This document shows, piece after piece, positions 5,717 through 51,193 of a stretch of 64,000 nucleotides of DNA. A program made the position numbers and the translations under genes. How positions within the stretch are numbered: position 1 is the stretch's first letter; each line of letters begins with the position of its first letter. Origin of the DNA: Acidobacteriaceae bacterium (GTDB taxonomy: Bacteria > Acidobacteriota > Terriglobia > Terriglobales > Acidobacteriaceae); assembly GCA_003134995.1 (NCBI GenBank), contig PLDC01000024.1, positions 186,001 through 250,000 of the forward strand, read 5' to 3'. The notes beneath the pieces are model-generated. The model saw nothing but the letters and a program-made list of their open reading frames with translations, was not told the origin of the DNA and did not search any database.

Positions 5717-5732
5717 TTCCAGAGGAGTGGGT

Positions 5733-6362: not shown

Positions 6363-6374
6363 GGAGTCCCCTGA

Positions 6375-7895: not shown

Positions 7896-7939
7896 TTTGA
7901 AGCTGGCCCGCATGGACCAGCGGAACAGGTATTGAGATT

Positions 7940-9514: not shown

Positions 9515-9547
9515 GCAAGTTTCAGGCAGCAACGTTAGGCGACGATT

Positions 9548-11457: not shown

Positions 11458-11472
11458 GGAAATCGGGAAAAC

Positions 11473-15259: not shown

Positions 15260-15331
15260 GCGAGTCTGCGTTGGTTCGTGATTTTACTGGGCAATAGCCG
15301 GGCGAAATTCTGAGGATCGACTGAGGCATCT

Positions 15332-28789: not shown

Positions 28790-28809
28790 TTGTTTTCTGT
28801 AATTCTGGC

Positions 28810-30879: not shown

Positions 30880-32663
30880 TTCACCGCGTCCAGTCTCTTC
30901 TCAATCGCATCCACATCGGCGCCAATATCTTTGCCGTCACTTGCCGCGCCGATTGCAAGAGAGGGTTTCTTGCACTCCTCATCTTTTTGCCGGCAAAGGC
31001 TGTAGTTGCCTTTGCCCGCATGATTCATTCGAACGCCGGCGGCTGCATAATCCTTGACCAGAATGTTACCCGGCGGCCAGTTTGCCCCGCCCACGATCAA
31101 GTTGTGGGTGAAGGTGGAATGCTCGAAGCAATCGTTGAACACTCCTTGCGGGCCTTTTCGCTCCGGTTGAACAGCGCAGTTCTGCGTTCCTCCACCGGCA
31201 GAGCCGACCTCGGCGTTCTGATCGGAGGAAAGTATGTTATTCGCAAAAGTAAAGTTCGACATCTTCTGCGGATTGGTAGCGAGAATCGAGAGGATAAAAC
31301 GGGGCACTGGAGAAGATGTCACATGTTCGATCTGAACGTCTCGAAGCGGAGGCTGAATCGACATGATTAGTGCAAACAGTCCGAAGGCCTGATACTCCTT
31401 GGAATGCACACCGTCGATGAGGACGTCGTGAATGCTGTAACGCTCTCCCGCCGCACTGGGGCCTCCGGCATCGAGACTGTTGGCAATCTGAAATGCGTTG
31501 CCGACGTTGATAATCTTGATGAACCTGATCGTGACGTCCGTCACCTGGCAAATCGGGCACCGGGCCGACTGGTTCTTTGCTGAGAGAACAATCGAGAAAC
31601 CTGCCTGGGTAAAACCGCCCCAGGTATTTTCAAGAAGGTTATCTTCAAACAGCACTCTCTGTGCGTTCTTGAGTTCGAAGTGGTTCTTAACAATGAAGGG
31701 ATGGCCGTTGAAGCCTCCCACAAAGCCAGTTTGGCCTGGCATCCAGATCATCGGCTTGAAAAGATGGTTGCGGCGAATTTCGATATCCGTGGGTGTGGTA
31801 TTTGCCCCGCGCCCGCCGAACATTACGTTCTCACCAGAAGCTTCCAGGAAGTTATTTAGAACCTTAAACGGACCCTCGGGATGATCGCCGCCACCCGCTG
31901 ACATGGTTTGAGCGTCGGTGCAAGAGCCGGTGCCTGCCACGCAGTGAAAATCGGAAAAGTAGGAATCCACTATTGCAACATTCGTCATCCACGAAAGCGC
32001 AACTCCGCGCCGGGTTTCGCTTTGCGCGGTTCCATGGACCCATACCCTATCGAAAATTACATGATGCGCTGTGCCGTCCTGGTCTACGGCGGCCAAGGCG
32101 GTTATGGACGCACTGGAATCAGTTCGAGTGATTTCCAGTCCGAAAAATCTGTAGTGATTCGCTCCCGTTAGGAACATGATCGGCCCCGATGACGACTTGC
32201 CGGCAAACTCGATCTTCGCCATTACGTTCCGCGGCGCGGCGCAGTGGTAATCAGGGCGGCTGGGCAGGGAAGCCACGCCGGCGTAACACGGGGTTATGCG
32301 AGTGCCTTCGGCAGGAAGGCTTTCATCGGGCGCAGCGCTGCGAAGCACGATCCAGTGAGAATCATCGCAGGACTTATTCGGAAGCCGGTATAGCCCCTGG
32401 AAAACTGCTCCGGCTTGCAGTTTCAGAGTGTCACCGCAGTTTGCGGAATTAATCGCTTCCTGCAAGTTGTCGCCCTGTTTAACGACGCGAACATTTCCTG
32501 GAGCAGGCGTATCAGCCAGGGCACTTTTCACAAAAACTCGGGGAAGTTCGGCCGGGCCATCGAATCGACTCGAAGGGGAATCGGCAGCGTTTATATTAAT
32601 CCCGGCTGACGAGAGAAACAGAAGGCAAGCCGCTGCGCGAAGTGCGGGATTCAATCCCTTCAT
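30876..32663 (-). CDS. secreted right-handed beta-helix protein
   Basis: A 595-residue protein with a signal peptide (ALRAAACLLFLSSAGININAA). A pectate-lyase-like beta-helix follows. The helix start has QGDNLQEAINSANCGDTLKLQAG, and later turns show IVDSYFSDFHC, NFLEASGENVMFGG and ELKNAQRVLFEDNLLENTWGG. Conserved Cys pairs suggest extracytoplasmic folding. It is clearly paralogous to the C-terminal two thirds of the lipoprotein at 37315. It may bind or cut polysaccharide, but no catalytic residues can be assigned. The ATG at 32663 is preferred over a GTG 12 bases upstream because GGAG then has normal spacing. Confidence 0.78.
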   Translation of the reverse strand: MKGLNPALRAAACLLFLSSAGININAADSPSSRFDGPAELPRVFVKSALADTPAPGNVRVVKQGDNLQEAINSANCGDTLKLQAGAVFQGLYRLPNKSCDDSHWIVLRSAAPDESLPAEGTRITPCYAGVASLPSRPDYHCAAPRNVMAKIEFAGKSSSGPIMFLTGANHYRFFGLEITRTDSSASITALAAVDQDGTAHHVIFDRVWVHGTAQSETRRGVALSWMTNVAIVDSYFSDFHCVAGTGSCTDAQTMSAGGGDHPEGPFKVLNNFLEASGENVMFGGRGANTTPTDIEIRRNHLFKPMIWMPGQTGFVGGFNGHPFIVKNHFELKNAQRVLFEDNLLENTWGGFTQAGFSIVLSAKNQSARCPICQVTDVTIRFIKIINVGNAFQIANSLDAGGPSAAGERYSIHDVLIDGVHSKEYQAFGLFALIMSIQPPLRDVQIEHVTSSPVPRFILSILATNPQKMSNFTFANNILSSDQNAEVGSAGGGTQNCAVQPERKGPQGVFNDCFEHSTFTHNLIVGGANWPPGNILVKDYAAAGVRMNHAGKGNYSLCRQKDEECKKPSLAIGAASDGKDIGADVDAIEKRLDAVN

Positions 32664-32732
32664 TTGCGTCTCCACAATTTCTCATCATAGCACCCGTTTT
32701 GAACGCTTCATTTCGCGTACAGGCGCGAATTC

Positions 32733-37314: not shown

Positions 37315-40020
37315 TCAGTAAACGCCCGTCGTTTCGGACACGATGGTGGTAACATCCGCGCCCAGGTCCGTGCCATCGGTGGCGGCGTTATGGTATGGGC
37401 TTGTGCTCAACAGTTGATAGTTCCCACCAATGCCGTTGTTGTAATTGACGAATTGCACGACACTCACCGTGGCGGGGAAATAATTTCCGGTAGGCCACAG
37501 GCTGGGCGGATAAGCCGAGGGCGTTGCAATCAGCGCATTGCTGGCGAATGAGTAAGGGCTGAAGCAGGCATTGAAAGTCGTTAGCGGTTTGTCGAAATTG
37601 GCGCAGTTCACCGTACCGCCGGTGGACCAGATGGGGTAGGTTCCGGCAAGGAAGATGCTGTTGGTGAAGCTGAAGTTCACCATCGGCCTAGTGGGTAGGG
37701 CGCCGACCGAAAACACGCTCCTTGGGGCGAAGACAGTCAGGTGATTGACGGAGACATTCTGCAGCAACGGGGCAGCGGCGGCTACGCTCTCTATTTCGGC
37801 GACAATTCCGCTGCCGTTGTACTTCACGGGATCAATGTCATCGATGGTGAGGTCATGAATGCTGTAACGTTCTCCATCGAGCGCTGGCAAGCCTTCTGTC
37901 AAGGGGTTGGCGAGCTGTATTCCACTCGCCACATGGCTAATCGAGTTGTAACGGATGGTAATGTCAGTAACCTTACAGAGCGGACACAGGCCGACGCCCG
38001 CGGCGCTGTTCTGGTTCACCGGCGTGATCACAATGCCGTATCCGTTCTGGCTGAACCCGCCCCAGGAATCTTCCATGATGTTGGCTTCCAGCAGGACGCG
38101 CTGGGCATTCTTTAGCTCGAAGAGATTCTTGACGATAAACGGATTCCCGGCTGGGCCTCCCACAAAGCCCGGCTGGCCCTGCATCCAGGTCATGGGCTTG
38201 AAGAAGTGGTTGCGGCTGATCTCCATATCAGTTGGGGTAATCGTGCTGGGGCCGCCGCCGAAGAGAATGTTTTCTCCTGATGCCTCGAGGAAGTTATCCG
38301 TGAACTTGAAGGGACCGACAGGATCGATGCCGCCACCGATGGCGGAGGCGTCGGTACAGGCTCCTGCGAGCGAGATGCAGTGAAAATCCGTAAAGAAAGA
38401 GTCGATGACGCTGGCGTACGAGATGCCCCCGAGTTCGATGCCCTTCTTGGTTTCGTCCTGTGCCGTGCCATGCAGCCATACCCGGTCGAGAATAAGATTG
38501 TTGGCCGTGCCACCAGTAATGTTGGTGTCAATCACTGCCAGTGAATAGACGATCCCAATGCCGGCCGAGCGCGTGACCTCGAGCCCGATCAGACGATAAT
38601 GGTTGGCTCCCGTGGCGAAGATGACGGGACCGCTGCCTCCCGCTGTCATGATCAATTTGGCCAGAACGTTTTGCGTGGAGGCGCAGTTAAAGGCGGGACG
38701 GCCCGGCAGCGAAGATACTCCTGCGTAGCACGGCGTAAGACGACTGCCTTCCGCGGGCAGCGCGGAATCGGGCGAAGCGGTGCGGACAATGATCCAATCG
38801 TTGTCGTCGCAGCTCTTGGCAGGGAAGGTGAACGGTCCTGTGAAGGTTGCGCCCGCTTGCAATTGAATCGTGTCGCCGCAGTTGGCGTTGTTCAATGCGG
38901 TCTGCAAATTTCCTCCAGCGTTGACAGTCGTAGTGACGCCGGGCGCTGGAGTGTTCGTCATTGCGGTTTGAATGTAAATGCGAGGTAATTCCGCCGGGCC
39001 GTCATATCCGCTGGCCGAACTTGAGGAAACGGTGAGAGTGTAGGCTTGCGAAACGCTTAGTCCGGAAGAGTCGGCCACCTTGGCAGTGAAAGTATAAGAG
39101 CCAGCAACCGCGGTCAGTCCGGAAAGTGCGCCGCTGGAGGCCTGCAACTGTATTCCCGAGGGCAAGCTCCCGCTGGTAAGCGTCCACAGATAAGGCGTCA
39201 CACCGCCGGTTGCGGAGAGCGTAGCCGCATACGGTGTGCTGATGTTGGCTTCAGGAAGTGTCGAGTTGACAATCGCCAGAGGCCCCACAGGGGTGACGGT
39301 TATCGTAACCGTCGCTTGCACACTGGGATTCGCTTTACTTGTTACGGTGATCGTCACTGAAGTGTTGCTAGACACTTTAGGCGCGACGAAAGCTCCAGTG
39401 CTTGAAATAGTTCCACCGCTGGCCGTCCATGTCACGCTGGTATTCGAACTTCCAGTCACTTGGGCGGTAAACTGCTCGTGCCCTTGGGAAGCAATAGTCG
39501 CACTTGTTGGCGAAATCCAAAGTTTGGCTCCGGACGTCCGGGCCGCAACGACGATATGCGTAGAAGTTGAACCAAACTCCTCAGGAACAACTCCAATTGG
39601 ACCGCGCGCGGGATTCGACACGAACTGTGGAATGGGTGTCCCAGACTGCTTGCCCGGAAGGGTTGAAGCGTAGAGCGTAAAACTGTAAGTGCCCGCAGCC
39701 GAAGGTATGCCTGTTATCGAACCCGTGCTTGGATTCAAGACCAAACCAGGGGGCAAACTGCCGTCAACGATGCTGAACGCATAAGGCGCCGCGCCGCCGC
39801 TGACTGAAGGTGAGGCGTTGTATGCGATACCAACCGTGGCCGGCGCCGCAGGAATCGTGATTCTGAGCTGCCCGTCCTGGCCACTTGAAGCACTCGCCAC
39901 ACTGGAACCTTGGGATCCAGCGCCACACGCCGTTAGCCCGGCAGCGCACAATAAGAGCAGGAGGACAACGAGTTTCGAGGCGGCGCTTTTTGCCGCTCGC
40001 AGGGGCCCGGTGTCGCGCAT
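37315..40020 (-). CDS. lipoprotein with Ig-like domains and right-handed beta-helix
   Basis: A 901-residue surface lipoprotein. Residues 16-33 form a signal with lipobox (LCAAGLTAC-G). Putative Ig-fold domains follow: a He_PIG type (about 65-110, GGAAPYAFSIVDGSLPPGL), a Big-2 type (about 165-245, repeated TVTITVT) and a second He_PIG type (about 250-330, GGVTPYLWTLTSGSLPSGI). From about residue 343 a beta-helix begins with YDGPAELPRIYIQTAM and repeats the features of the protein at 30876 (NANCGDTIQLQAG, NFLEASGENILFGG). It likely sits on the outer membrane facing the EPS. Start: ATG with GAGG ten bases upstream. Confidence 0.83.
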   Translation of the reverse strand: MRDTGPLRAAKSAASKLVVLLLLLCAAGLTACGAGSQGSSVASASSGQDGQLRITIPAAPATVGIAYNASPSVSGGAAPYAFSIVDGSLPPGLVLNPSTGSITGIPSAAGTYSFTLYASTLPGKQSGTPIPQFVSNPARGPIGVVPEEFGSTSTHIVVAARTSGAKLWISPTSATIASQGHEQFTAQVTGSSNTSVTWTASGGTISSTGAFVAPKVSSNTSVTITVTSKANPSVQATVTITVTPVGPLAIVNSTLPEANISTPYAATLSATGGVTPYLWTLTSGSLPSGIQLQASSGALSGLTAVAGSYTFTAKVADSSGLSVSQAYTLTVSSSSASGYDGPAELPRIYIQTAMTNTPAPGVTTTVNAGGNLQTALNNANCGDTIQLQAGATFTGPFTFPAKSCDDNDWIIVRTASPDSALPAEGSRLTPCYAGVSSLPGRPAFNCASTQNVLAKLIMTAGGSGPVIFATGANHYRLIGLEVTRSAGIGIVYSLAVIDTNITGGTANNLILDRVWLHGTAQDETKKGIELGGISYASVIDSFFTDFHCISLAGACTDASAIGGGIDPVGPFKFTDNFLEASGENILFGGGPSTITPTDMEISRNHFFKPMTWMQGQPGFVGGPAGNPFIVKNLFELKNAQRVLLEANIMEDSWGGFSQNGYGIVITPVNQNSAAGVGLCPLCKVTDITIRYNSISHVASGIQLANPLTEGLPALDGERYSIHDLTIDDIDPVKYNGSGIVAEIESVAAAAPLLQNVSVNHLTVFAPRSVFSVGALPTRPMVNFSFTNSIFLAGTYPIWSTGGTVNCANFDKPLTTFNACFSPYSFASNALIATPSAYPPSLWPTGNYFPATVSVVQFVNYNNGIGGNYQLLSTSPYHNAATDGTDLGADVTTIVSETTGVY

Positions 40021-40230: not shown

Positions 40231-41793
40231 TTAGATTTCTTCCTGTTGATAGGTTTCGATTAGACCGACGGCGAGCTGGTTGGCTGTGTCTGGATCATGA
40301 ATGCCTTCGACCTGCCATGCTTTGCGCGTCCAAATTGCCCATAGAAGTCCAACGCCGTAAACCAGCGAGCCCGCCACAAGCTGAATCGCTAATTGAATGT
40401 AGTTGTGGGCAATGAACCAATGGCGCATGAGCAGCAGAACTGCAACCAACGGCACGCAAAGCATGAGGGGAAGCAGAAATGCTTCGCGTAGATAAATACC
40501 AATGCGCAACTTCAGCACCCGGCAAAGATGCCGCGGCAGGAAGAGCATGGTAGTGCAGGCCAGAGGTATCGCAGTGCCCGCGGCATCGCCCAGAATACCG
40601 AAGTGCCTGACCAGAAAGATACTGAGGAAAAGATTCGCACTGCCTTCCATCAAAGTCACAATGGCCAGAGATTTGTGCTTCGCCATGCCGAACAGAACCC
40701 GGCCGGAAGCGGACTGCGCCAGCATCAAAGTCGATGGGATTACCAGCACGAGCAAGACCGGATAACTGATGGGCACATAGCGAGCCCCAACCCATGCTTC
40801 GATGATCGACTTCCCCAAGATGATGAGAATGGCGGCTATGGGAAAGATGATCAAAGCGCAAGCTCGATTTCCGGCGACAAGAATCCTTCTCAGCCCGCCC
40901 AGATCCCCGGTTGCATCGGATTTGCTCGACATGGGAACAAACACCTGTGCCAGCCCGCTAACGACTTCGCCGCCGTAATCTACCAGGCGTGATCCGATGA
41001 CGAAGTAGGTGATGGCAGCGGCAGAGATGAATTTGCCGATGACCATCGCGTCGGTCTTAAAGCGCAGCCGGGCCGCCACGATGATGATGAAGGTTGAACT
41101 GCTGTAGGTGGCAATGCGCCTCAGGCTTTCGCGGCTGACATTATTCAGTTGGAGACGCAGGGGCAGAAGGCTGAGAACCGCGGTAGCGTTGACGAGTCCG
41201 GAAATCAAAGGCATCGACACGGTGATAAGGGCCACGACGAGAAGCCCATACCCGTGCCGCACCGCAATCACAATGGAAACAGCACGCAACACGGTTGCGC
41301 CGATGCTGGTGAAGTTCAACAGATAGAAACGCTGCAACCCCTCGAGCACGCCACCAAATACTCCCAAGGGAAAGCCCAGGGAGACAGCCGATCCAACAAT
41401 CAGGAAGAGCCATCGTGCGGTGTGCAGGAACTGCGGCGAAATGTGAAAAATCGAATCTACAAAAAAACTGCCGGCCACGGTGAACAGTATTGCAAGAGCG
41501 CCAATTCCGCTGTAAGTAAATAATGCCGTACTAATGAGGCGATTCAACTCTTCTTGATTCTGAGTCGCCGAGTAGGTGGCAACATAGCGCACGATCGAGG
41601 AACGAATCCCCAGATCGAACAGCCCGTAGTAGCCCGTGATCGAGAAGACCAAGAACCACAAGCCAAAAGCATCGTCTCCCAGGTGATGAATAATGTAGGG
41701 AGAGATAAAGATGCCAACCAAAATGTTAACGCCGAGGGCAAACCAGCTCGAGCCAACGTTCTTGAACAGCGCAATTTTATCCAGCTTCTTCAT
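40231..41793 (-). CDS. Wzx-type lipid-linked oligosaccharide flippase
   Basis: A 520-residue integral membrane protein with about 12-14 helices, in the MATE/MOP superfamily polysaccharide transporter layout. It begins FKNVGSSWFALGVNILVGIF, with conserved DLGIRSSIVRYVA near residue 60, typical of Wzx. It would flip completed lipid-linked EPS repeat units to the periplasm, where the Wzy-like protein (15332) polymerises them. This completes a Wzx/Wzy-type pathway, since no flippase is in the core operon. The 210-base spacer to the next gene downstream contains only a GC-rich dyad (40214-40229). Confidence 0.88.
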   Translation of the reverse strand: MKKLDKIALFKNVGSSWFALGVNILVGIFISPYIIHHLGDDAFGLWFLVFSITGYYGLFDLGIRSSIVRYVATYSATQNQEELNRLISTALFTYSGIGALAILFTVAGSFFVDSIFHISPQFLHTARWLFLIVGSAVSLGFPLGVFGGVLEGLQRFYLLNFTSIGATVLRAVSIVIAVRHGYGLLVVALITVSMPLISGLVNATAVLSLLPLRLQLNNVSRESLRRIATYSSSTFIIIVAARLRFKTDAMVIGKFISAAAITYFVIGSRLVDYGGEVVSGLAQVFVPMSSKSDATGDLGGLRRILVAGNRACALIIFPIAAILIILGKSIIEAWVGARYVPISYPVLLVLVIPSTLMLAQSASGRVLFGMAKHKSLAIVTLMEGSANLFLSIFLVRHFGILGDAAGTAIPLACTTMLFLPRHLCRVLKLRIGIYLREAFLLPLMLCVPLVAVLLLMRHWFIAHNYIQLAIQLVAGSLVYGVGLLWAIWTRKAWQVEGIHDPDTANQLAVGLIETYQQEEI

Positions 41794-41880: not shown

Positions 41881-42567
41881 TCAGGCGATCAGTTCAGTCG
41901 GTTGGTTTCTCTTGGTAATTTTTAACCAGTACTGGCCGTTCAATGGAGGGTCGCTGAGTTGCTGAACAAATAAACCACGAGAACGACATTCGTTTTCGAT
42001 CCATCGGCGCTTGTGGTAAACCTGGCCGGGCTGCGCGGAAGTATGGCTCCGACCCACCCACCGCGTCCCCGAATAATCGGCGGCGCCTCGGCTCAGCCAA
42101 GAGGCAGGATAATACGAAGTCAGAAAGAATGCGTCTGGAGTGGAGTTCTCAGCGAATCCGTCGAGCATGATCTGTATTTGAGATTTCGGAGCGTGCGTCC
42201 AAATGGACCGAGCCAGAACGGCATCGAACTCAACCCCGAAAACGGAGAAATCAAACTTATCATTGCCGTCGAACAAAGGCCTCTTTGCAGTTCGCAGTTC
42301 GGGGCCAAGCACATGATCGAGGCCAGCCTGCAACATCAATGAGTTGGGTTCGATGCCAAAGTAGCACTCTGGGTCCAGCAGGCGAACCAGCCAATATCCT
42401 GCGCGCAAACAACCGCAGCCGACATCCAGAACCCTGGAAGAAGGAAGCAACCCCTCGCGCACCAGAGTGGAAAGCTGCAGACGGCCGGCGGATTCGAACA
42501 ACTGGGGCGGTCCGCCGGTGAAAATTCCATCCCGTTCAAGCTTGTCTGCGATCTCTGCCAGCCGCAT
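41881..42567 (-). CDS. class I SAM methyltransferase
   Basis: A 228-residue methyltransferase with SRVLDVGCGCLRAGYWLVRLL (motif I), YFGIEPNSLML and FDAVLARSIWTH. The conserved C-terminal half is the one whose decayed copy lies at 36100. An in-frame TTG four codons upstream (42579) is possible, but the ATG was preferred. It lies between the flippase and a GT2 gene in the same direction, so glycan methylation is a reasonable guess. Confidence 0.82.
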   Translation of the reverse strand: MRLAEIADKLERDGIFTGGPPQLFESAGRLQLSTLVREGLLPSSRVLDVGCGCLRAGYWLVRLLDPECYFGIEPNSLMLQAGLDHVLGPELRTAKRPLFDGNDKFDFSVFGVEFDAVLARSIWTHAPKSQIQIMLDGFAENSTPDAFFLTSYYPASWLSRGAADYSGTRWVGRSHTSAQPGQVYHKRRWIENECRSRGLFVQQLSDPPLNGQYWLKITKRNQPTELIA

Positions 42568-42672
42568 CTGTCCCCACAATTTGCGCTATCGGATAGACAG
42601 AAGTCTACACCAAAGTGAGGGAACGCTGACGTTTGCGCCGCGAGTCTTAGAGATGACGGGGAACCGTGCCGA

Positions 42673-43674
42673 CTATTTCATTTGCCGGTTCTGCCAGATC
42701 CGTGCCGCCTGGATCGTAAAACCAGGAGCGATTCGGAGACCCATCATCAGAGCGCGCAGTTTCATGGATGGCATAAGAGTATGGGCTCGCTGCAGCGATT
42801 CGCGTGCCTTGTTTGGCTCTTGCGCGAGTAGAAATGCTTTGCCTTCGACGAAGGCGTGCGTGGCCTTAATTTTTTTCAGTCGATCTGCGAGCATCGCTGA
42901 GGTGTGAGAATCCAAATCGAGCGTTCGCTGAAATTTTTCGAGCGATTGAATCTCGCCCGCCAGCAAGTTTTCTGCAACCGCTCCCTGGCTGTCAGCCCGC
43001 ACATTGCGGCGGAGAAGTACCTGGCGCTGATACGCGATCTTGCTTCCCGCGTTGACAATGCGAAGCCAAAGATCGTGATCCTCGGAACAGCGAATCTTTT
43101 CGTCAAACAATCCCGCAGCCATCACGTTTTGCCGGCGCACCACGGTGCCGGACGTGATGACTTGAGTTTGTTCCACGAGAAGGCTTTCGAAAGTTACCGG
43201 CCCGCTGGAAGGGCAAATCTGCATAAAGGTTTTGCCCCCCGCGCCGTCGCCGGCAAGAATGGCATCGCAGTACACCATATCGAGAGCAGGATCTTCGCGC
43301 AGGAACTTTATCTGCTCGGCGAGATATTGCGGCAGCCACGCATCGTCGCTATCCAGAAAGGCCAGCCATTCGCCGCGCGCGCGCTGTATCCCGCTATTAC
43401 GCGCCGCGCTGGGACCACCATTTTGCCGCGTCAGATAAATGATTCGAGAAATGTAGGGCTGAATGACCTGTTCGAGTTGTTCTGTATCCGGCGATCCATC
43501 GTTGATCAGGATTACTTCAAAATCAGTGAGGCTCTGCGCGAAAACCGAATCCAGCGCGGCGCGAACGCGGCCGGCCGCGTTAAACGCGGGGATAATCACG
43601 CTCACCAGCGGGGACTGCTGCGCGAGCGCAGATTGAAGGCTTCGCGAAGAAGACGGGTCGACCGGATCGGGCAT
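42673..43674 (-). CDS. glycosyltransferase family 2
   Basis: A 333-residue soluble GT-A enzyme. It has VSVIIPAFNAAGRVRAALDSV, VILINDGSPDTEQ, GGPSAARNSGIQRARGEW and FLDSDDAW, with DSD as the metal-binding DXD. The C-terminal part is helical. It is probably a repeat-unit or side-chain transferase. It begins 38 bases after the epimerase stop in the same direction and may belong to the sulfation operon transcript. Confidence 0.88.
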   Translation of the reverse strand: MPDPVDPSSSRSLQSALAQQSPLVSVIIPAFNAAGRVRAALDSVFAQSLTDFEVILINDGSPDTEQLEQVIQPYISRIIYLTRQNGGPSAARNSGIQRARGEWLAFLDSDDAWLPQYLAEQIKFLREDPALDMVYCDAILAGDGAGGKTFMQICPSSGPVTFESLLVEQTQVITSGTVVRRQNVMAAGLFDEKIRCSEDHDLWLRIVNAGSKIAYQRQVLLRRNVRADSQGAVAENLLAGEIQSLEKFQRTLDLDSHTSAMLADRLKKIKATHAFVEGKAFLLAQEPNKARESLQRAHTLMPSMKLRALMMGLRIAPGFTIQAARIWQNRQMK

Positions 43675-43712: not shown

Positions 43713-44861
43713 CTAGATGTATTTGGCATGGCGCATCCATTGTTCGACCAGAGCGAGTCCTTGGGAAGATAAGATGCGCGGCTCGTATCCCAGGACTTTG
43801 CGGGCTTTGTCGATGCTGAAGAAAACCGTACCGGTTTGCGTCGCAAAATCCACCGCATCAGGGATTGGCACCGTGGCGCGCTCGGCCGCCGCTGGACGGC
43901 GCACTCCGATGCGAGACCGCACTAGCTGCCGGCGCTCTTCGCTGAGCGATTCCAGCCAGCCCCAAGCGCCGGAAAGAATTTTCTGCGTGAGAGGAACTTG
44001 CATCAGCATTTCTCGAAATTGCCGGCTACGCAAAACCTGCGCCGTCGCCTTTACGGAGCCCGTGAGTAAACCGGGTTGTTGCTTGTAGTATGCGCGCACC
44101 TGCTCGCTGGAGATTTCGGGCAAAGGGACGCTCACGCCCAGCATGGTTGCGTGAGCGCGAATAAAGTCGCCCCAGGTGACGGCTTCGCCATCCGTGATGA
44201 AGAAGGTATTGCCGCTCGAAGCGTCGTTGTCTAAGCACAGGAAAATCGCGTCGATGAGATTGTCGACATACGTAGTGTTGCACGCGCCGCGGCCGCCATC
44301 GATGAGAGCAACTGTATTTTGCCGCAGGCTCTGCACCAGGCGGGTCGACCACGCGGAATACGGACCATACACAATCGAAGGCCGCAGAATTACCGTACTC
44401 ATGCCTTTGCGGCCCATGCTCTCGGCGGCTTTTTCAGCACGCCTCTTGTTATCGCAGTAGTCGTCGCCGGTGGAGTGAACCGGAGCGTCCTCGGACTCAG
44501 AGCCAGCAGGAGGCGTGAGGCCAAAGACCGCAGCTGTGCTCATGTGAATGAATCGCTCGACGCCGGCCTCGGCTGCAACCGCGAGCAGATTCTCCGTTCC
44601 GCGCACAATGCCGCGTGCGTTTCCCAATCCGCAATGGATCACGACTTTCGCATCGCCCAGCGCTAAACGCAGCGATTCGCGATCCAGCAAACTTCCCGGC
44701 AGCAGTTCAATGGGAAGGCGCGCGATTCGGGCCGCCTTATGAGGACTGTGAACCAGAGCCCGCACCCGCCCGGCACTTTCCAGAACGAGACGTTCGCAGA
44801 CACGTCCGCCAATGAAGCCAGTGGCGCCGGTGACGAAAATTGTTCGATCACGCCACTTCAT
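43713..44861 (-). CDS. NAD-dependent epimerase/dehydratase (extended SDR)
   Basis: A 382-residue extended short-chain dehydrogenase. The cofactor loop is VTGATGFIGGRVCERL near residues 9-24, and the catalytic YCDNK (YxxxK) is near 140. RPSIVYGPYSAWS follows. A C-terminal extension of about 80 residues is longer than in most sugar epimerases. It probably makes or modifies a nucleotide sugar. The ATG overlaps the oxidoreductase TGA (ATGA at 44858-44861), which fixes the start. Confidence 0.87.
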   Translation of the reverse strand: MKWRDRTIFVTGATGFIGGRVCERLVLESAGRVRALVHSPHKAARIARLPIELLPGSLLDRESLRLALGDAKVVIHCGLGNARGIVRGTENLLAVAAEAGVERFIHMSTAAVFGLTPPAGSESEDAPVHSTGDDYCDNKRRAEKAAESMGRKGMSTVILRPSIVYGPYSAWSTRLVQSLRQNTVALIDGGRGACNTTYVDNLIDAIFLCLDNDASSGNTFFITDGEAVTWGDFIRAHATMLGVSVPLPEISSEQVRAYYKQQPGLLTGSVKATAQVLRSRQFREMLMQVPLTQKILSGAWGWLESLSEERRQLVRSRIGVRRPAAAERATVPIPDAVDFATQTGTVFFSIDKARKVLGYEPRILSSQGLALVEQWMRHAKYI

Positions 44862-45892
44862 CGAACGGCACCCTCTGGCCGCGCAATATCTGACCAAGGT
44901 TCAGGGATTCGGCGACGGTGAGCGTAACATGCTTCGATCAGTTCGATCACGCGAAGCGCCTGCCAGCCATCGGATTCCAGCTTCTGATTGCCGCGGATGC
45001 TCTGAATAAAATTGTCTAGCTGCTTGTAGAATGTGCTGGTGTCAGCAAAATTCGGCAAGCGCAGCGTTTCACTCACCTCACATCCACCGGCCTCGCGACG
45101 AATGATCAGAGTATCCGGATCCTCGGCGGGAATCTCCGCCTGCGCCTTGCTTCCGCGGATCAAGAGACGATTGCGCAGAGGATAGGTACGGCTCACGCGA
45201 GCCTGGCCCTCGATTTCGCCGAACTTCCCGCAGTGCCGCAAATCCAGAATGGCGTTAGCTTCAATGCCGCTGCCCCAATCGTCATCCTGATAGTCGAAGT
45301 TAACGACAGGGCCGAACCATTCAATCAAGCTATCGAGCAGGTGAACACCGAAGTCGAGTAAAGCTCCGCCGCCCGCGAGTGTGCGCGAGAAATAAAATCC
45401 CGAAGCGCTTGTCCAATCGAAGACGCCGCCGTATGGCCAGTCATAGCCAAGCACTTCACCGAGATAGCCCTCTTGCAGGATGATCGGAAGCAACGTATGG
45501 CTGGCCACAAAACGCCGGTTCATTCCGACGGCAAGAAGCACTGCTTTTTTTTCTGCCGCTTCGCAACAGGCACGGGCGTCCGCGGCGGTCGTTGCCAGCG
45601 GTTTCTCGCACAACAAATGCACGCCGGCGTGAATGGCTTCCAGGTTGACCGGGGCGTGTAGGCTGTTCGGCAGCGCATTGATGAGCGCGTCGACCTGCGG
45701 GAGTACGGTCTTGTAATCTGCTGAAATCTGGCAATCCAGACGAAAGTGTTCCGCTAATCTTTGCGCGCGAGTAGCGTCGGCGTCGATCAGCCAGAGAGTG
45801 CCAATGCCGGGATGGATCGCCGCGGCAGGCAAGTGGCCGATCTTGGTGATTTCGCCGCAGCCCAGAATCGCAAGGCGGATGTCGCCGCTCAT
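44858..45892 (-). CDS. Gfo/Idh/MocA-family oxidoreductase
   Basis: A 344-residue NAD(P)-dependent sugar oxidoreductase. The Rossmann part begins LAILGCGEITKIGHLPAA. The family EKPLA motif (here CEKPLATTAADA) and GGGALLDFGVHLLD, with the catalytic-region His, are present. Members oxidise or reduce nucleotide sugars or inositols. Placement between sulfotransferases and an epimerase suggests a rare-sugar pathway. It overlaps both neighbours (ATGA downstream, TGATG upstream), so it is tightly coupled. Confidence 0.88.
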   Translation of the reverse strand: MSGDIRLAILGCGEITKIGHLPAAAIHPGIGTLWLIDADATRAQRLAEHFRLDCQISADYKTVLPQVDALINALPNSLHAPVNLEAIHAGVHLLCEKPLATTAADARACCEAAEKKAVLLAVGMNRRFVASHTLLPIILQEGYLGEVLGYDWPYGGVFDWTSASGFYFSRTLAGGGALLDFGVHLLDSLIEWFGPVVNFDYQDDDWGSGIEANAILDLRHCGKFGEIEGQARVSRTYPLRNRLLIRGSKAQAEIPAEDPDTLIIRREAGGCEVSETLRLPNFADTSTFYKQLDNFIQSIRGNQKLESDGWQALRVIELIEACYAHRRRIPEPWSDIARPEGAVR

Positions 45893-46791
45893 CAGCGTCG
45901 CTCCGGAGCGAGGCTTCGGAAAATCGAGGATGGTTTGCTTCGATCGGAGGTCGAGATGCTAACTTCCGCTTCCTCTGGCCGCGTCACCAGTTCGTATCCC
46001 AAGGCGGTCATCAGCGAACCCCATGCAGCTTCAATCTCGGCGATGGAACTCTCGGGTAACTTTGTTTTCCATCCACCGGAAACAGCTCCTCGCACAAACG
46101 GAATATCGGTTCGCTTGCCTTTCGTCGAGACCCAATTATCGCCCTGAGTCTTTTCGAGTTTGCGCATGTTATCTGCGGCACTTCTGCCGATAGCCTGTTC
46201 AAGCAGAGCTGGAGTGGGTTGAACGCCAAGAAATTCGGCCAGGCGCGCCGTTTGGTTCATCGTATCCGCGAGCAAATCTTCGTAGCGAAGCAACAGGAAT
46301 TCCGGATTTCCGCCGCGCGCATAAATCCAGCTCCCTACATTTTCCCGCCACGTCCCCCAGCTTGCGGAAATCATTCGTCCGGCAACGAAGTCGCTGACGA
46401 AGCTGGCCAGCGGATATGCGTCCTCAATGTGCCGGTATTTTCGCTGAAAGTCGTAATAGGAGAGCGCCACATCGCGCGGGTCGCGCACGATGTAGACCAC
46501 CTTGCGATAGCGGGGATGAAAGTACTGGTGACTCTTGATGAAGCGCGGCCGCGGAATACGTTTCAGTTGCAGGCTCGATTGCGCCTCGCTGTCAGGAACC
46601 TGATTTTCAATGGTGGCGAAGGTGACGTCTTCCTGAGGATGCAGCAGGTTTGCCACCAGAAAACGCGTCCATGTGTTGCCCGAGCGCGGATAAGAAACAA
46701 TAAAAGTGTCGTCCGGATGGATCGCGAAGTCGCGTCCGGCAATGTCTCCGCGAAGAAGACGTTTGAGCCCTTGCTGAAAGCGGTACATCAC
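45892..46791 (-). CDS. sulfotransferase (PAPS-dependent)
   Basis: A 299-residue protein. The 5'-phosphosulfate loop is VSYPRSGNTWTRFLVANLL (about 30-48), and the 3'-phosphate motif is VYIVRDPRDVALSYYDF. LLLRYEDLL and the C-terminal KGKRTDIPFVRGAVSGGW (K-x-x-R plus binding loop) also fit sulfotransferase family 1. It is a paralogue of the next gene upstream. It should transfer sulfate from PAPS to a sugar hydroxyl, releasing PAP. It overlaps its neighbours on both sides. Confidence 0.9.
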   Translation of the reverse strand: MMYRFQQGLKRLLRGDIAGRDFAIHPDDTFIVSYPRSGNTWTRFLVANLLHPQEDVTFATIENQVPDSEAQSSLQLKRIPRPRFIKSHQYFHPRYRKVVYIVRDPRDVALSYYDFQRKYRHIEDAYPLASFVSDFVAGRMISASWGTWRENVGSWIYARGGNPEFLLLRYEDLLADTMNQTARLAEFLGVQPTPALLEQAIGRSAADNMRKLEKTQGDNWVSTKGKRTDIPFVRGAVSGGWKTKLPESSIAEIEAAWGSLMTALGYELVTRPEEAEVSISTSDRSKPSSIFRSLAPERR

Positions 46792-47657
46792 GAAAACCGC
46801 TCCCCGAGCAGCGATTCATGCAACTGCGCAGGCACGGCCTCATCCGCCGGAGTCGTCGCCAGTTCGTATCCCAGCCACTTCATCAATGAGCACCACGCTT
46901 GCTCCAATTCTTTCACGGAAGCTTCCGGCAAGCCCGCGCACCAGCCGCCAGGTTTTGCCGATCGCACGAAAGGGACATCCGCACGCGTGCCTTTTGTCGA
47001 CGACCACATGCCAGTCTGAGCGTTCTCAAGCTCGCGCATTTTGTTAGCCGTGCTTTGCGCAACCGCGTGAGCGATGCGCGACGAGTCAATTGGAATGCCC
47101 ACGAAGGCAGACACTTTGGTCAGTTCCGCTGCGGTGTCGGCGATCATATCCTCGTAGCGCAGCAGCAGAAATCCTTGACTGCCGTAGCGCGTCGAAAGCC
47201 AACCGGCCACGTTCTCGGCCCACGATCCGTACTCACTCGTCTCGCCAGCGATGAATCGCGTGACAAATTGCGCGATGGGATAGTGGTCGTCGATCAATCT
47301 GCGCTTGCGGTGAAAGTGATATTGCGAGAGAGCCACGTCTCGCGGATCGCGCACCACGTAGATGATTTTCTTATAGCGCGGGTCGAAGTATTGGTGGCTC
47401 TTCAGGAAACGCGGTCTTGGCAAAGTTGAAAGATGCCTCTTGGAAAGAGCTTCGGGGTCCGGGATCAACTCATTGATATTGGAAAAGTCCGGCCGCTTGT
47501 CCGGATAAATCAGATTCGCAATCAGAAACCGGGTCCACGTATTGCCTGACTTGGGATAGGAAACGAGAAAGGTGTCATCCGGAAAAACGATAAGGTTGCG
47601 TCCAGGGCGCTGAGCCCCGAAGGCGCGCTTGGTCCCGGCAATCAGGCGCCTGATCAT
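46788..47657 (-). CDS. sulfotransferase (PAPS-dependent), paralogue
   Basis: A 289-residue sulfotransferase with VSYPKSGNTWTRFLIANLI, VYVVRDPRDVALSQYHF, LLLRYEDMI and KGTRADVPFVRSAKPGGW. The ATG at 47657 was chosen because its N terminus then aligns with the downstream paralogue. A TTG-initiated longer form (47714) has no support. Two adjacent copies may sulfate two different positions or sugars. Confidence 0.9.
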   Translation of the reverse strand: MIRRLIAGTKRAFGAQRPGRNLIVFPDDTFLVSYPKSGNTWTRFLIANLIYPDKRPDFSNINELIPDPEALSKRHLSTLPRPRFLKSHQYFDPRYKKIIYVVRDPRDVALSQYHFHRKRRLIDDHYPIAQFVTRFIAGETSEYGSWAENVAGWLSTRYGSQGFLLLRYEDMIADTAAELTKVSAFVGIPIDSSRIAHAVAQSTANKMRELENAQTGMWSSTKGTRADVPFVRSAKPGGWCAGLPEASVKELEQAWCSLMKWLGYELATTPADEAVPAQLHESLLGERFS

Positions 47658-47763
47658 GGTGAAATTTCTTGAGCCCCACCGCTTTGCTTTTTCATAATCT
47701 AACACACGCAGCAAGAGCGCTTTTCGCGCCTCGTCTTACGAAAGACGGTGACTCCCAGTTCAT

Positions 47764-48573
47764 TTAGCGAGCCGGTTCAGCCACGCGAATGTGCGGTTCC
47801 ACTAAAGTCAGAAGTTCATCTTTCAGAAAAGGTCCGCTGGCCAGCAGCCCTGAGAGCAGAGGATCGCGGCGATTGGCGCTCAGCGCCGTTTTCTCCAGAG
47901 TGCTCGTAAAACCGCCAGCGCTCTCCACCAATGCCACACCCGCCACCACGTCCCACTCGTTTTTTGGTGTCAAAGTAAAGGTTACTTCGGCCAGTCCAGC
48001 TGAAACCAGTGCGAGCTTGTAGGCCACGGATCCCATGGGTCGAATCTTGAGTGCTGTATTCTCGAACGGCTTCCATTCACCGCGCTTCACTTCACTACGG
48101 CTGGCTAGAACCAGGGCTCCATCGAGAGTGCGCCGCTGGCTCGCCTGGGCTGGCTTGCCGTTATAAGAGACGCCGCAATCGATCGCTCCCAGAAAAGTTT
48201 CGTCAGTGGCAGGATTGTAAATTCCGCCGGCCACGGGACGACCGTTCTGGACGTACCCGATGGAAGTGCAAAATTCCGGAATGCCTTTAACGAATTCGCG
48301 AGTTCCGTCGAGCGGATCAACTACCCAAACGCGCGAACGCTGCAAGCGAATGGGATCGTCCACGCTCTCTTCCGAGAGCCAGCCTTCTCCATCGCGCAGC
48401 AGTTCCTTGCGCAGAACGGCGTCGAGCGCGCGATCTGCCTCGGTCACGGGATCGTGCCCAGCTTTGTATTCGGTTTCAATCGCTCCCGGCGTGAAGCGCG
48501 AGAAAACCGCTCGTGAAGCTTCCAGCGCGGCTTGAACGCGTTTCAATATGTCTGCGTAAGATTTTGATTCCAT
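47764..48573 (-). CDS. cysQ: 3'(2'),5'-bisphosphate nucleotidase CysQ
   Basis: A 269-residue member of the inositol-monophosphatase superfamily. Metal-binding motifs are DPVTEADRALD, EES (WLSEESVDD) and WVVDPLDGTREFVKG, with the late WDVVAGVALVESAGG. CysQ splits the sulfotransferase by-product PAP (and PAPS) into AMP, relieving product inhibition. Its place directly upstream of two sulfotransferase genes supports that role. Confidence 0.9.
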   Translation of the reverse strand: MESKSYADILKRVQAALEASRAVFSRFTPGAIETEYKAGHDPVTEADRALDAVLRKELLRDGEGWLSEESVDDPIRLQRSRVWVVDPLDGTREFVKGIPEFCTSIGYVQNGRPVAGGIYNPATDETFLGAIDCGVSYNGKPAQASQRRTLDGALVLASRSEVKRGEWKPFENTALKIRPMGSVAYKLALVSAGLAEVTFTLTPKNEWDVVAGVALVESAGGFTSTLEKTALSANRRDPLLSGLLASGPFLKDELLTLVEPHIRVAEPAR

Positions 48574-48619
48574 AATGTCTTGTAAATCTCCGTGACAAAT
48601 TCCCTTCTTGGAATAATGC

Positions 48620-48646
48620 TTAACTGAAAACTGAGACCGAGAACTG
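48620..48646. repeat. degenerate heptanucleotide repeat
   Basis: TTAACTG, AAAACTG, a 6-base unit AGACCG, then AGAACTG lie in the 76-base spacer between the permease and cysQ genes. It shares the 7-base rhythm of the arrays at 191, 54544 and 57058. Confidence 0.5.
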
Positions 48647-48649
48647 TCT

Positions 48650-49426
48650 TCAAGATATAAGCATGCGCGCTCCCGTAGCCAGCAAGACTGCGCAAAGAAT
48701 GCGTCGAAGCCACGGAACCGGAACCCGCGTACTCAAGTAAGAGCCAAGGAGTCCTCCCGGGATCGAGCCCAACACCAGGGCTCCGACGAGGCGGATGTCA
48801 ACATTGTTCATCCGGTAATGGAGCAAACTGGTCACGCCGGTAAGTAGTAAGGCGTGCACAATGTCGGTACCAACCATGACCTTCGGCGGAAAGCTGAAAA
48901 AAAGCAAAAGCATCATCATGACAATGCTGCCCGAGCCGACCGAGGTGATGCCCACCAGAAAACCCGCCACCAGTCCGATCACCGACATTCCAACGAACGA
49001 CTTCACGGTCGGTGGCTTCACAATCCCTGTTGGGATGCGGTCCTCGATCTTTTTCTGGAAGAACAAGAAAGTCGGAATGCAAATCAGCAGGACTCCGACA
49101 GCGACAGTAATGAAATGATTGACGCCATTGCCGTAGTGGTTCCGGAGGTAAACCAGGAGACTAACGCCGGCATACGAGCCCGGAGCACTGCCGATAATGA
49201 GCGCCAGGACCACTTTGCGCCGAACCGTACCCTTGCGCAAGTGGACAATACTGGCGCCGATTTTTGTAACAAAGTTGAACAGTGCATCCGACCCAACTGC
49301 ACGAATCGCAGGTACGTGCAGACCGAAAATGAGAATCGGGAGCAGCAAAACGCCGCCCCCGACTCCCGTCATTCCAATGAGGGTCCCGACAAAAAAACCC
49401 ACCAGGCTCTTGATCAGCAGATCCAT
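48650..49426 (-). CDS. TauE/SafE-family membrane permease
   Basis: A 258-residue inner-membrane protein with about eight helices. It carries the family's two repeated motifs: GMTGVGGGVLLLPILIFG (residues 19-36) and, in the second half, GITSVGSGSIVMMML. The family moves sulfite, sulfoacetate or other small sulfur anions in either direction, and some members act in sulfate uptake. Set between sat-cysC and cysQ, a sulfate importer for PAPS synthesis is plausible, though annotations often read sulfite exporter. Confidence 0.85.
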   Translation of the reverse strand: MDLLIKSLVGFFVGTLIGMTGVGGGVLLLPILIFGLHVPAIRAVGSDALFNFVTKIGASIVHLRKGTVRRKVVLALIIGSAPGSYAGVSLLVYLRNHYGNGVNHFITVAVGVLLICIPTFLFFQKKIEDRIPTGIVKPPTVKSFVGMSVIGLVAGFLVGITSVGSGSIVMMMLLLFFSFPPKVMVGTDIVHALLLTGVTSLLHYRMNNVDIRLVGALVLGSIPGGLLGSYLSTRVPVPWLRRILCAVLLATGARMLIS

Positions 49427-49444
49427 GACAGTACCGGTGGCGGA

Positions 49445-51193
49445 TTAAGCCGATTCCGCGGTCGTTCCGATGAAGCCTTCCCGCTCCAGATGAAGAATGA
49501 CCTCCTGTGCCGCTTCTTCCGCGGACAGTTCGCCGGTGTTGATGGTGACTTCGGCGTCGGACGGAACTTCGTAAGGATCCGAGATGCCGGTGAACTCTTT
49601 CAGAATTCCAGCGCGCGCCTTGGCGTACAAACCTTTGCGGTCACGCTGTTCGCAAACTTCTACGGTGGTGGCGATGTGCACCAGAATGAACCCTCCGTAG
49701 GGCTCAATCAGTTGCCTCACATACTTGCGGGTCGCGTCATAAGGCGCGATGGGCGCGCAAATTGCGATGCCGCCGTTCTTGGTGATTTCCGATGCAACGT
49801 AGCCGATGCGCCGGATGTTGATGTCGCGGTGCTCTTTGGAAAATCCGAGTTCGGAAGAAAGATTCTTGCGAACTAAATCACCGTCGAGCATGGTTGTGGG
49901 GCGGCCGCCCATTTCCAGAAACTTGGTCATCAGCACATTGGCGATCGTCGACTTGCCCGAACCCGAAAGTCCGGTAAAGAAAATCGTTACGCCCTGTTTG
50001 TGACGAGGCGGAAAACTGCGCCGCAATTCCGCCACAACTTCCGGATACGTGAACCATGCTGGAATTTCGCGGCCTTCATTAAGACGCTGGCGAAGTTCAG
50101 TGCCTGAGATGTTGAGTACGCGATCTCCCTTCTTGACCTCGTCGTCGGGAACGTATTTATCCTGATCCTCGAGGTAGACCATCATGTTGAAAGGGACCAT
50201 GGTGACGCCGATGTCGGCTTCGTGCTTTTTGAATACTTCCTGAGCTTCGTAGGGGCCGTAGAAAGGCTTCTTCGTCTCAGGATCGGAGCCCGGTCCGGCG
50301 TGATCGCGGCCTACGATGAAGTGCGTAACACCATGATTCTTGCGGATAAGCGCGTGCCAGATGGCTTCGCGTGGTCCGCCCATGCGCATGGCGAGGGGCA
50401 GCAACGAAAGTTTCGCGGTCGACTGCGGGAACTTCGAAAGCAGCAGTTGATAGCAACGGACGCGAGTGTAGTAATCCACGTCGCCGGGCTTGGTCATGCC
50501 CACGACGGGATGAATCAGCAGATTGGCTTCGACTTGCTTGGCGGCGCGGAATGCCAGTTCCACGTGCGCGCGATGCATAGGGTTGCGTGTCTGGAAGGCG
50601 ACCACTTTCCGCCAGCCCACGCGCGCAAATTCTGCGCGCACTTCGGCGGGCGTCAGACGCAAGTTGCGAAAATCGTAGTGCGACGGAATTTGCGTCGCCT
50701 CGATTTTGCCTCCGACGTACCACGGATTCGACTTATTGATGGCGTAATCAGCCCCGGGATGCGCGGCGCTGGTGGTGGCGAAAACCGCTTTTGCTTCGGC
50801 CTTACGGTCAGGCTGCCAGACCTCTTCGACGTTCAGCACTGCCAACATCACGCCTTCGGGATCGCGAAGCGCAATTTTGCTCGTCCCCGGCGTTAGCTTC
50901 TTGGCAAATTCTTCGGTCACGTCGAGCGTGACGGGCATGGGCCAAAGGGTTCCATTGGCCAGCCGCATGTTGTGGCAGACGCCTTCGTAGTCGGCGCGGG
51001 TCATGAAGCCCTGCAGCGGAGAGAAGCCGCCGGTTACCAGCAACTCCAGATCACAAAGCTGGCGGGGAGTAAGGTCCCAGGAAGGCCATTCTTTCGATTG
51101 GGCCTTCAATTCGGCGATTTTTTCGGGTTGAGCGATGAGTTGAACAAGTTCTCCGCCGTGCGGCGGAATGAGATGGCTGGTCGTGGCTGTCAA
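49445..51193 (-). CDS. sat/cysC: bifunctional sulfate adenylyltransferase / APS kinase
   Basis: A 582-residue fusion that makes PAPS from sulfate and ATP. The N-terminal ATP sulfurylase (about 1-390) has LVTGGFSPLQGFM, the catalytic FQTRNPMHRAHVEL and VGRDHAGPG. The C-terminal APS kinase (about 400-575) has FTGLSGSGKSTIAN, MLDGDLVRKNLSSELGFS and EVCEQRDRKGLYAKA. No cysH (PAPS reductase) or sulfite reductase gene is near, whereas three sulfotransferase genes are. That suggests PAPS is used here for sulfation rather than assimilation. It is the first gene of a likely nine-gene minus-strand operon. Confidence 0.94.
   Translation of the reverse strand: MTATTSHLIPPHGGELVQLIAQPEKIAELKAQSKEWPSWDLTPRQLCDLELLVTGGFSPLQGFMTRADYEGVCHNMRLANGTLWPMPVTLDVTEEFAKKLTPGTSKIALRDPEGVMLAVLNVEEVWQPDRKAEAKAVFATTSAAHPGADYAINKSNPWYVGGKIEATQIPSHYDFRNLRLTPAEVRAEFARVGWRKVVAFQTRNPMHRAHVELAFRAAKQVEANLLIHPVVGMTKPGDVDYYTRVRCYQLLLSKFPQSTAKLSLLPLAMRMGGPREAIWHALIRKNHGVTHFIVGRDHAGPGSDPETKKPFYGPYEAQEVFKKHEADIGVTMVPFNMMVYLEDQDKYVPDDEVKKGDRVLNISGTELRQRLNEGREIPAWFTYPEVVAELRRSFPPRHKQGVTIFFTGLSGSGKSTIANVLMTKFLEMGGRPTTMLDGDLVRKNLSSELGFSKEHRDINIRRIGYVASEITKNGGIAICAPIAPYDATRKYVRQLIEPYGGFILVHIATTVEVCEQRDRKGLYAKARAGILKEFTGISDPYEVPSDAEVTINTGELSAEEAAQEVILHLEREGFIGTTAESA

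Follow-up and report, generated by a model that had tools for sequence, protein, structure and literature searches.

A stretch of 64,000 nucleotides from an Acidobacteriaceae bacterium (assembly GCA_003134995.1, contig PLDC01000024.1, positions 186,001 to 250,000 of the forward strand; hereafter the window, in which positions are counted from its first letter) carries a run of minus-strand genes headed by sat-cysC, which encodes a predicted single-chain ATP sulfurylase and adenosine 5'-phosphosulfate (APS) kinase, and including two sulfotransferase genes. The genome, of 5.62 Mb and rated 100% complete, has this stretch on its contig C26, and the window also holds an exosortase and an exopolysaccharide (EPS) operon. 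We consider it probable that the Sat-CysC and sulfotransferase genes serve to sulfate a surface glycan, namely the EPS of the exosortase locus. As a first-pass annotation of the window had proposed, the predicted functions form a complete route from sulfate through APS and 3'-phosphoadenosine 5'-phosphosulfate (PAPS) to sulfotransfer, together with a candidate phosphatase for 3'-phosphoadenosine 5'-phosphate (PAP), all within an EPS locus, here found to be of the XrtA type. The gene set, its recurrence in relatives, the co-occurrence of the fusion with sulfotransferases and the APS-reductase type of the genome's CysH proteins together make surface-glycan sulfation the best reading.

In the mechanism that we propose, Sat-CysC would convert sulfate and ATP to APS and then to PAPS. 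The APS would be shared with a CysH of the APS-reductase type for cysteine synthesis, and the PAPS would be spent by the sulfotransferases ST1, ST2 and ST3 of the window and probably also by sulfotransferases encoded elsewhere in the genome. Sulfate esters would be placed on the uronic acid-containing glycan of the exosortase-type Wzx/Wzy EPS locus, probably while the repeat unit is still lipid-linked in the cytoplasm and not yet exported by the flippase. The CysQ-like phosphatase would clear the by-product PAP, which otherwise inhibits sulfotransferases, and the TauE permease would move an anion of the pathway, sulfate or sulfite.

The predicted sulfation gene run

Seven minus-strand genes, from sat-cysC to an SDR epimerase, had been named in the first-pass annotation, and family profile matches recovered every one in its place. 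Behind sat-cysC (49445-51193) follow a TauE/SafE-family permease (48650-49426; PF01925, 163.4 bits), a candidate CysQ-like PAP phosphatase of the inositol monophosphatase family (47764-48573; PF00459, 158.1 bits), the sulfotransferases ST1 (46788-47714; PF00685, 130.1 bits) and ST2 (45892-46791; PF00685, 125.7 bits), a Gfo/Idh/MocA oxidoreductase that probably acts in nucleotide-sugar or sugar modification (44858-45892; PF01408, 69.7 bits), and an SDR-type NAD-dependent epimerase/dehydratase (43713-44897; PF01370, 91.4 bits) with the ATG at 44861 as its likely start. The run extends further, after successive gaps of 38, 93 and 87 nt, to a family 2 glycosyltransferase (42673-43674; PF00535, 106.4 bits), a probable methyltransferase (41881-42579; a weak PF08242 match under the cut-off) and, last, a Wzx-like flippase (40231-41793; PF13440, 42.5 bits). 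The six junctions among the first seven genes had been described as mostly overlapping, which holds for three of them (ST1/ST2 by 4 nt, ST2/Gfo by 1 nt, and Gfo/SDR by 4 nt from the ATG at 44861 or 40 nt from the listed TTG); the other three are gaps of 18, 76 and 49 nt. Promoter-like sites were not above chance (4 against 5.3 expected) and terminator-like sites barely so (22 against 15.9 expected, s.d. 3.9). Upstream of sat lies a gene for a 4'-phosphopantetheinyl transferase.

Both sulfotransferases of the run retain what we take to be the PAPS-binding motifs (SYPKSGNTW in ST1 and SYPRSGNTW in ST2, each with RDPRDVALS), and the best solved relatives of ST1 are cytosolic sulfotransferases. 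At least 7415 relatives of ST1 pass E 0.001 among 8000 candidates scored, the best 120 of which give no function beyond sulfotransferase, and a phage search with ST1 returned no match. The third sulfotransferase expected after algD was confirmed as ST3 (28780-29790, plus strand; PF13469, 98.5 bits; GCPRSGTS and RDARDVALS), a gene that overlaps the end of algD. Outside the window the genome has two further pairs of sulfotransferases, L006 with L009 on contig C13 and L007 with L011 on contig C1; pairs like that of C13 (about 7 kb apart) recur in genomes G004, G016, G018, G019 and G027, the last two being without a Sat-CysC match.

The phosphatase carries the motif DPLDGTREF, which we assume to be typical of PAP phosphatases, and we infer that it recycles PAP. 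Its best NCBIfam match is CysQ (TIGR01331) at 122.6 bits, under the equivalog cut-off of 228.8, with HisN at 116.1 bits, and it is therefore called CysQ-like only; the genome encodes one other PF00459 protein. The permease may carry sulfate, sulfite or another anion. The earlier suggestion was that it may import sulfate; two SulP permease genes are present in the genome away from the locus, so TauE need not be the importer, and we dropped it as a necessary one. Weak matches of TauE to RecA chains were set aside as presumably spurious.

Sulfate activation and the sulfur metabolism of the genome

Sat-CysC matches the equivalog model NF004040/PRK05537 over its full length (residues 8-575; 928.2 bits against a cut-off of 669), and the sulfurylase and kinase motifs QTRNPMHRAH, GRDHAG, GLSGSGKST and LDGD are intact. 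Its top-scoring solved relative is the Penicillium ATP sulfurylase 1i2d. The kinase-like domain of fungal ATP sulfurylase is an inactive PAPS sensor, and in the alignment its P-loop reads GYMNSGKDA where Sat-CysC has GLSGSGKST. The nearest named relatives by Sat sequence are Candidatus Sulfotelmatobacter records at 90% and 87% identity, so that the bacterium most likely belongs to this group of acidobacteria from soil or peat. As a separate observation, Sat-CysC scores higher against the fungal enzyme (E 9e-200, with the longer match) than against the solved fusion 2gks (1.6e-175), which is presumably the Aquifex-type Sat/APS-kinase fusion; for a bacterial protein this is a possible clue to how the fungal regulatory domain arose.

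Sat-CysC is the sole PF01747 match, and hence the single ATP sulfurylase found, in the genome. A whole-protein search with Sat-CysC gave no second APS kinase in its own genome at E 0.001, and the genome has no CysD, both of its PF01507 matches being CysH. Given that no other ATP sulfurylase and no CysD were found, Sat must also feed assimilation, and the idea of a unit dedicated to sulfation had to be given up, its Sat being at once the only sulfate-activating enzyme found in the genome. With one ATP sulfurylase the genome shows no dedicated PAPS supply of the NodPQ kind, that is, an extra copy of sulfate activation; NodPQ is also an ATP sulfurylase of another type than Sat.

The first-pass annotation had noted that the locus lacks a PAPS reductase, and this stands, since no CysH was found among the window proteins scanned and both cysH genes of the genome lie on other contigs. 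One of them (contig C24, which has no sat) is near the genome's only sulfite reductase gene, with siroheme-like genes, recognized by eye, in between. The other CysH (L002, contig C9) is apart from the sulfite reductase and beside what by eye is a CapD-type polysaccharide epimerase-like gene. Both proteins carry the CC and GCxxC patterns and ECG(L/I)H, which we take as the mark of the APS-reductase type; neither is of the PAPS-reductase type without iron-sulfur cysteines. The top two solved matches of both are 2goy, an APS reductase, and 7lhr, a PAPS reductase according to its depositors, the latter ranking first for L001 and second for L002; some CysH proteins of the APS-reductase type accept PAPS too. 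Among the 30 CysH relative loci listed, 25 have at least part of the APS-reductase pattern and 5 have none. Of the 20 loci whose genomes have the Sat-CysC fusion, 19 have both cysteine patterns and one, L073, has a single pattern; the five without the pattern (L052, L053, L058, L061 and L068) come from fusion-free genomes, and their matches are longer, with a CysD-like span. Given the APS-reductase motifs, APS by itself is probably a sufficient substrate for assimilation, and cysteine synthesis can probably dispense with the APS-kinase half, which is then free to make PAPS and in need of another purpose.

One report (PMC6018796) describes peat Acidobacteria of the Sulfotelmatobacter genus as known for dissimilatory sulfur genes. 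A dissimilatory sulfur metabolism, at which the genus name hints, was considered and rejected here: the genome's two NIR_SIR matches fall in one open frame of 581 amino acids near cysH, the sole gene of this kind, and dsrAB was not found among them.

A constant trio and variable sulfotransferases

We compared 40 relative loci around sat, counting an open reading frame if its best match exceeded 60 bits. Within them sat was found 40 times, cysQ 38 times and tauE 35 times. Identity within the genus (30 loci) is 83-93% for sat (median 87%) and 70-86% for cysQ, against 43-60% for the sulfotransferases near the trio. A strong PF00685-like sulfotransferase is present in 14 of the 40, and an ST3-like one in L194; the nearest PF00685-like gene lies 2.6-5.1 kb upstream of sat in ten loci, directly after cysQ in L162, and 7-9 kb downstream in L167, L180 and L191. 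No sulfotransferase was found in the DNA searched around sat, some of it in short stretches, in 25 of the 40, and no open reading frame of the 40 loci had Gfo or SDR as its best match. Since the trio is kept while its sulfotransferase neighbours differ, the trio looks constant and the sulfotransferases variable, which is the most interesting part of the comparison. The order of cysQ followed by a sulfotransferase, as first described, is indeed that of the present locus and was seen in 2 of the 40 relative loci (L162, with a PF00685 gene, and L194, with one of the ST3 type).

The predicted association of Sat-CysC, sulfotransferases and exosortase EPS genes recurs in relatives, in several arrangements. 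EPS-type genes flank the trio on both sides in at least 7 of 21 loci listed (L166, L176, L181, L182, L183, L187 and L188), and in relatives the sulfotransferases are near wzx, deacetylase and glycosyltransferase genes. Genomes G085 and G092 belong to another family. In G085 the core EPS genes continue co-directionally into sat, tauE, cysQ and an ST3-like gene, and in G092 co-directional core EPS genes likewise precede sat and cysQ, tauE being found in G085 only.

The fusion and the sulfotransferases also occur together across genomes. We surveyed 101, own included, of which 50 (44 whole or nearly whole, 6 in pieces) have the fusion at 70% identity or more; the counts are uncorrected for kinship, some genomes are incomplete, and the match to the fusion in G023 and G028 is without about the last 60 residues. 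A PF00685 protein over the family cut-off is present in 48 of the 50 genomes with the fusion and in 5 of the 51 without it (G013, G019, G027, G076 and G098); outside the genus the figures are 9 of 9 and 2 of 47. At 80 bits or more they become 40 of 50 against 3 of 51 overall, 6 of 9 against 0 of 47 outside the genus, and 4 of 7 against 0 of 9 in the family outside the genus (p 0.019). G086, whose fused relative is 43% identical and which lacks a PF00685 match, was counted as without the fusion, and moving it changes little.

Linkage to the exosortase and alternative readings

Among the 11 genomes (own included) with at least 48 kb of contig downstream of sat, nine have sat within 60 kb of an exosortase. 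A looser count of the same linkage gives 16 of 18 and favours linked genomes, because these were counted on any contig and unlinked ones needed the 48 kb downstream; 30 further genomes were not judgeable, for instance at contig ends, G056 has no exosortase match, and G006 has a partial one below the required 100 bits. The limits of 48 kb, 60 kb and 80 bits were chosen after the tables had been seen.

Several observations weigh against EPS sulfation as the role of the trio. In two genomes, G011 and G029, trio and exosortase are unlinked. As controls for synteny two other genes were followed by hand count in ten linked genomes, among them the present one: gcvT, at one flank, and a GAF-domain gene situated beyond sat. 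Of the nine genomes in which gcvT could be placed, five have it on the contig of the exosortase; the GAF-domain gene lies no more than 60 kb away in seven of the ten. The linkage seen in the genus thus partly reflects regional synteny, which weakens the sat-exosortase linkage as a proof by itself. Of the PF00685 matches with at least 80 bits (82, many of them on short contigs), only 27 lie no more than 30 kb from sat, and only 22 no more than 80 kb from an exosortase. Five PF00685 genes of the present genome lie outside the window, so that PAPS has other uses as well. The best solved relatives of ST1 are small-molecule sulfotransferases, and the acceptors of PF00685 are diverse. Finally, a sulfotransferase was found at only 2 of 80 named Sat-CysC loci across phyla (a third, in L113, matched weakly, at 27 bits), with a profile built from 31 sulfotransferase open reading frames of this clade, which distant ones may escape, and with flanks of up to 10 kb and often less; five of these loci (L082, L083, L085, L088 and L105) coincide with members of the genome set (G005, G008, G020, G053 and G004). 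The fusion alone is thus no sign of sulfation, and we rejected it as a general marker.

It might accordingly be supposed that Sat-TauE-CysQ is a plain entry into sulfate assimilation, placed among EPS genes as an inherited neighbourhood, with a kinase that makes PAPS for general needs. The single ATP sulfurylase is consistent with this, as are the flank genes that share part of the synteny, the unlinked trio of G011 and G029, and the sat and cysQ-like neighbours that occur in other phyla without nearby sulfotransferases. What makes it unlikely in our view is that the placement of the trio with respect to the EPS genes varies: in some genomes it lies between them, and in the other family it is co-directional with the core EPS genes. 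In G012, G018 and G022 gcvT is elsewhere and the GAF-domain gene is more than 90 kb off or on another contig, and sat is still 37-43 kb from the exosortase, between EPS-type genes; in G085 and G092 sat is on the opposite side, 16-19 kb from it. Moreover, the sulfite reductase and cysH share another contig without sat, the APS-type CysH motifs leave assimilation with no need of a kinase, and the fusion tracks sulfotransferases outside the genus.

A second alternative is that ST1 and ST2, with the Gfo/Idh, SDR and methyltransferase proteins and the nearby phosphopantetheinyl transferase, make a sulfated small molecule or glycolipid and no polymer, as the solved relatives of ST1, the phosphopantetheinyl transferase gene upstream of sat and the lack of Gfo and SDR as common members of the 40 relative loci would allow. 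The same run, however, includes a glycosyltransferase and a Wzx-like flippase, the sulfotransferases of relatives are near wzx, deacetylase and glycosyltransferase genes, and no polyketide or peptide synthase was found among the window proteins scanned, all of which makes this alternative quite improbable. We therefore retain sulfation of a surface glycan as the best reading of the run.

The exosortase EPS locus and the presumed acceptor

The exosortase gene (3339-4277, minus strand) matches the XrtA model TIGR03109 at 221.1 bits (cut-off 208) and TIGR02602 at 208.5 bits (cut-off 105.55). The core EPS operon (4730-16672, plus strand; NCBIfam XrtA-associated models, with TIGR03013 at 446.9 bits against a cut-off of 393.35) encodes a sigma-54 regulator, Wza-like export, outer-membrane and chain-length proteins, an XrtA-type ATPase, a tyrosine kinase, an initiating sugar transferase, glycosyltransferases and a Wzy-like or O-ligase-like protein. 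With TIGR03109 and TIGR03013 both over their cut-offs the locus is of the XrtA exosortase type; TIGR03007, TIGR03015, TIGR03018, TIGR03027 and TIGR03108 also match it, below theirs.

The acidic sugar would come from an AlgD-like GDP-mannose 6-dehydrogenase (27464-28789, plus strand), predicted to supply the mannuronate donor. The algD label of the first-pass annotation was right: the best solved relative is the GDP-mannose 6-dehydrogenase 1mfz (E 1.7e-138), well ahead of a UDP-glucose dehydrogenase as runner-up (1.6e-68), and in NCBIfam the protein is over a cut-off at subfamily level only (TIGR03026).

A narrower form of glycan sulfation, whose odds overlap with those of the broader reading, would have as its acceptor a glycan on proteins sorted by the PEP-CTERM/exosortase system, or on lipid. 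The Wzy-like protein does resemble the model of exosortase-associated O-glycosylation ligases (62.7 bits against a cut-off of 188.1), and a protein with a PEP-CTERM-like tail adjoins the exosortase; given that genes for polysaccharide export and chain length are also present, we hold this form to be rather unlikely and keep the EPS as the presumed acceptor.

The protein just mentioned (1861-2469) is small and secreted-looking, carries the tail VPEMGTLGLLGTGLVGLAGVVRRKMKA, which we take to be a PEP-CTERM-like motif, and is a likely substrate of the exosortase. The window further encodes a heparinase II/III-like polysaccharide lyase (23911-26289, minus strand; PF07940, 139.7 bits; PF16889, 116.2 bits) that may trim a uronate polymer. 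Relatives of this protein share loci with the sat trio, within 20 kb, in L169, L182, L191, L193 and L199.

Comparison with known systems

The published systems are cited here from portions of the papers named. One close parallel is Cobetia marina KMM 1449 (PMC11766843), with a sulfated capsule of established structure and genes for cysNC, cysD, cysQ, a sulfate permease and a sulfotransferase. As in the present locus, sulfate activation, APS kinase, cysQ and a permease are in one operon among polysaccharide genes with a sulfotransferase; unlike it, this marine Gammaproteobacterium uses CysD and CysNC in place of Sat-CysC, and an ABC-transporter capsule in place of Wzx/Wzy with an exosortase. 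Vibrio sp. KMM 8419 (PMC11641403) likewise combines PAPS genes (cysNDC) with sulfotransferases in a polysaccharide cluster, a combination that its authors regard as a "hallmark" of the synthesis of sulfated polysaccharides, and its capsule is sulfated and of established structure; its PAPS genes are second copies, whereas one sulfate-activating enzyme was found in the genome studied here.

The xss cluster of Synechocystis, the product of which, synechan, was shown to be sulfated (PMC8205485), resembles the locus as a Wzx/Wzy-type EPS cluster with two sulfotransferases. It differs in being cyanobacterial, and the main text of that paper is without "paps", "phosphoadenosine", "sulfate adenylyltransferase" and "exosortase". 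Its authors held sulfated bacterial polysaccharides to be exclusive to cyanobacteria. They also knew of no sulfotransferase genes in other bacterial EPS clusters, a statement that, given the later work on Cobetia marina and Vibrio sp. KMM 8419, no longer holds. In Actinoplanes missouriensis (PMC13390465) the Wzx/Wzy cluster wps-1 similarly contains two sulfotransferases with a sat/APS-kinase-family gene adjoining, deletion of which severely impairs sporangia; this is an actinomycete, its sat is under other transcriptional control, and sulfation has not yet been shown there. Pontiella is a further case. The rhizobial NodPQ-NodH system (PMC6192434) resembles ours in linking the supply of PAPS to a sulfotransferase and to sulfated polysaccharides of the cell surface, and in having an APS-preferring CysH; it differs in that NodPQ exists beside CysDN.

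In the open-licence literature, by title and start of abstract, we found no report of a locus of this kind in Acidobacteriota. The phylum, the exosortase EPS setting and the single-chain Sat-CysC are new here; the kind of gene set itself is known from marine capsules. More tentatively, and with confidence short of even, we propose that soil Acidobacteriota of the Sulfotelmatobacter kind make a class of sulfated, mannuronate-containing exosortase EPS, in which the constant Sat-CysC/TauE/CysQ-like module would supply and recycle PAPS, swappable sulfotransferase cassettes would set a strain-specific pattern, and one bifunctional enzyme would split sulfate between cysteine and slime. Sulfated bacterial polysaccharides have, in the portions of the literature cited, come mainly from cyanobacteria and marine bacteria. 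If the proposal is true, it would extend the sulfation trait to a major soil phylum, in mostly uncultured acidobacteria, predict for exosortase EPS loci a chemical product that can be tested, and make the constant trio with variable sulfotransferases a genome-mining sign for new sulfated polymers.

Other proteins of the window

Two proteins of the window (30876-32675 and 37315-40020) share long stretches that look similar by eye. The first is without a Pfam match and the second has putative Ig domains only; relatives of the pair recur in L162 and L212, which are from one genome, and in L191.

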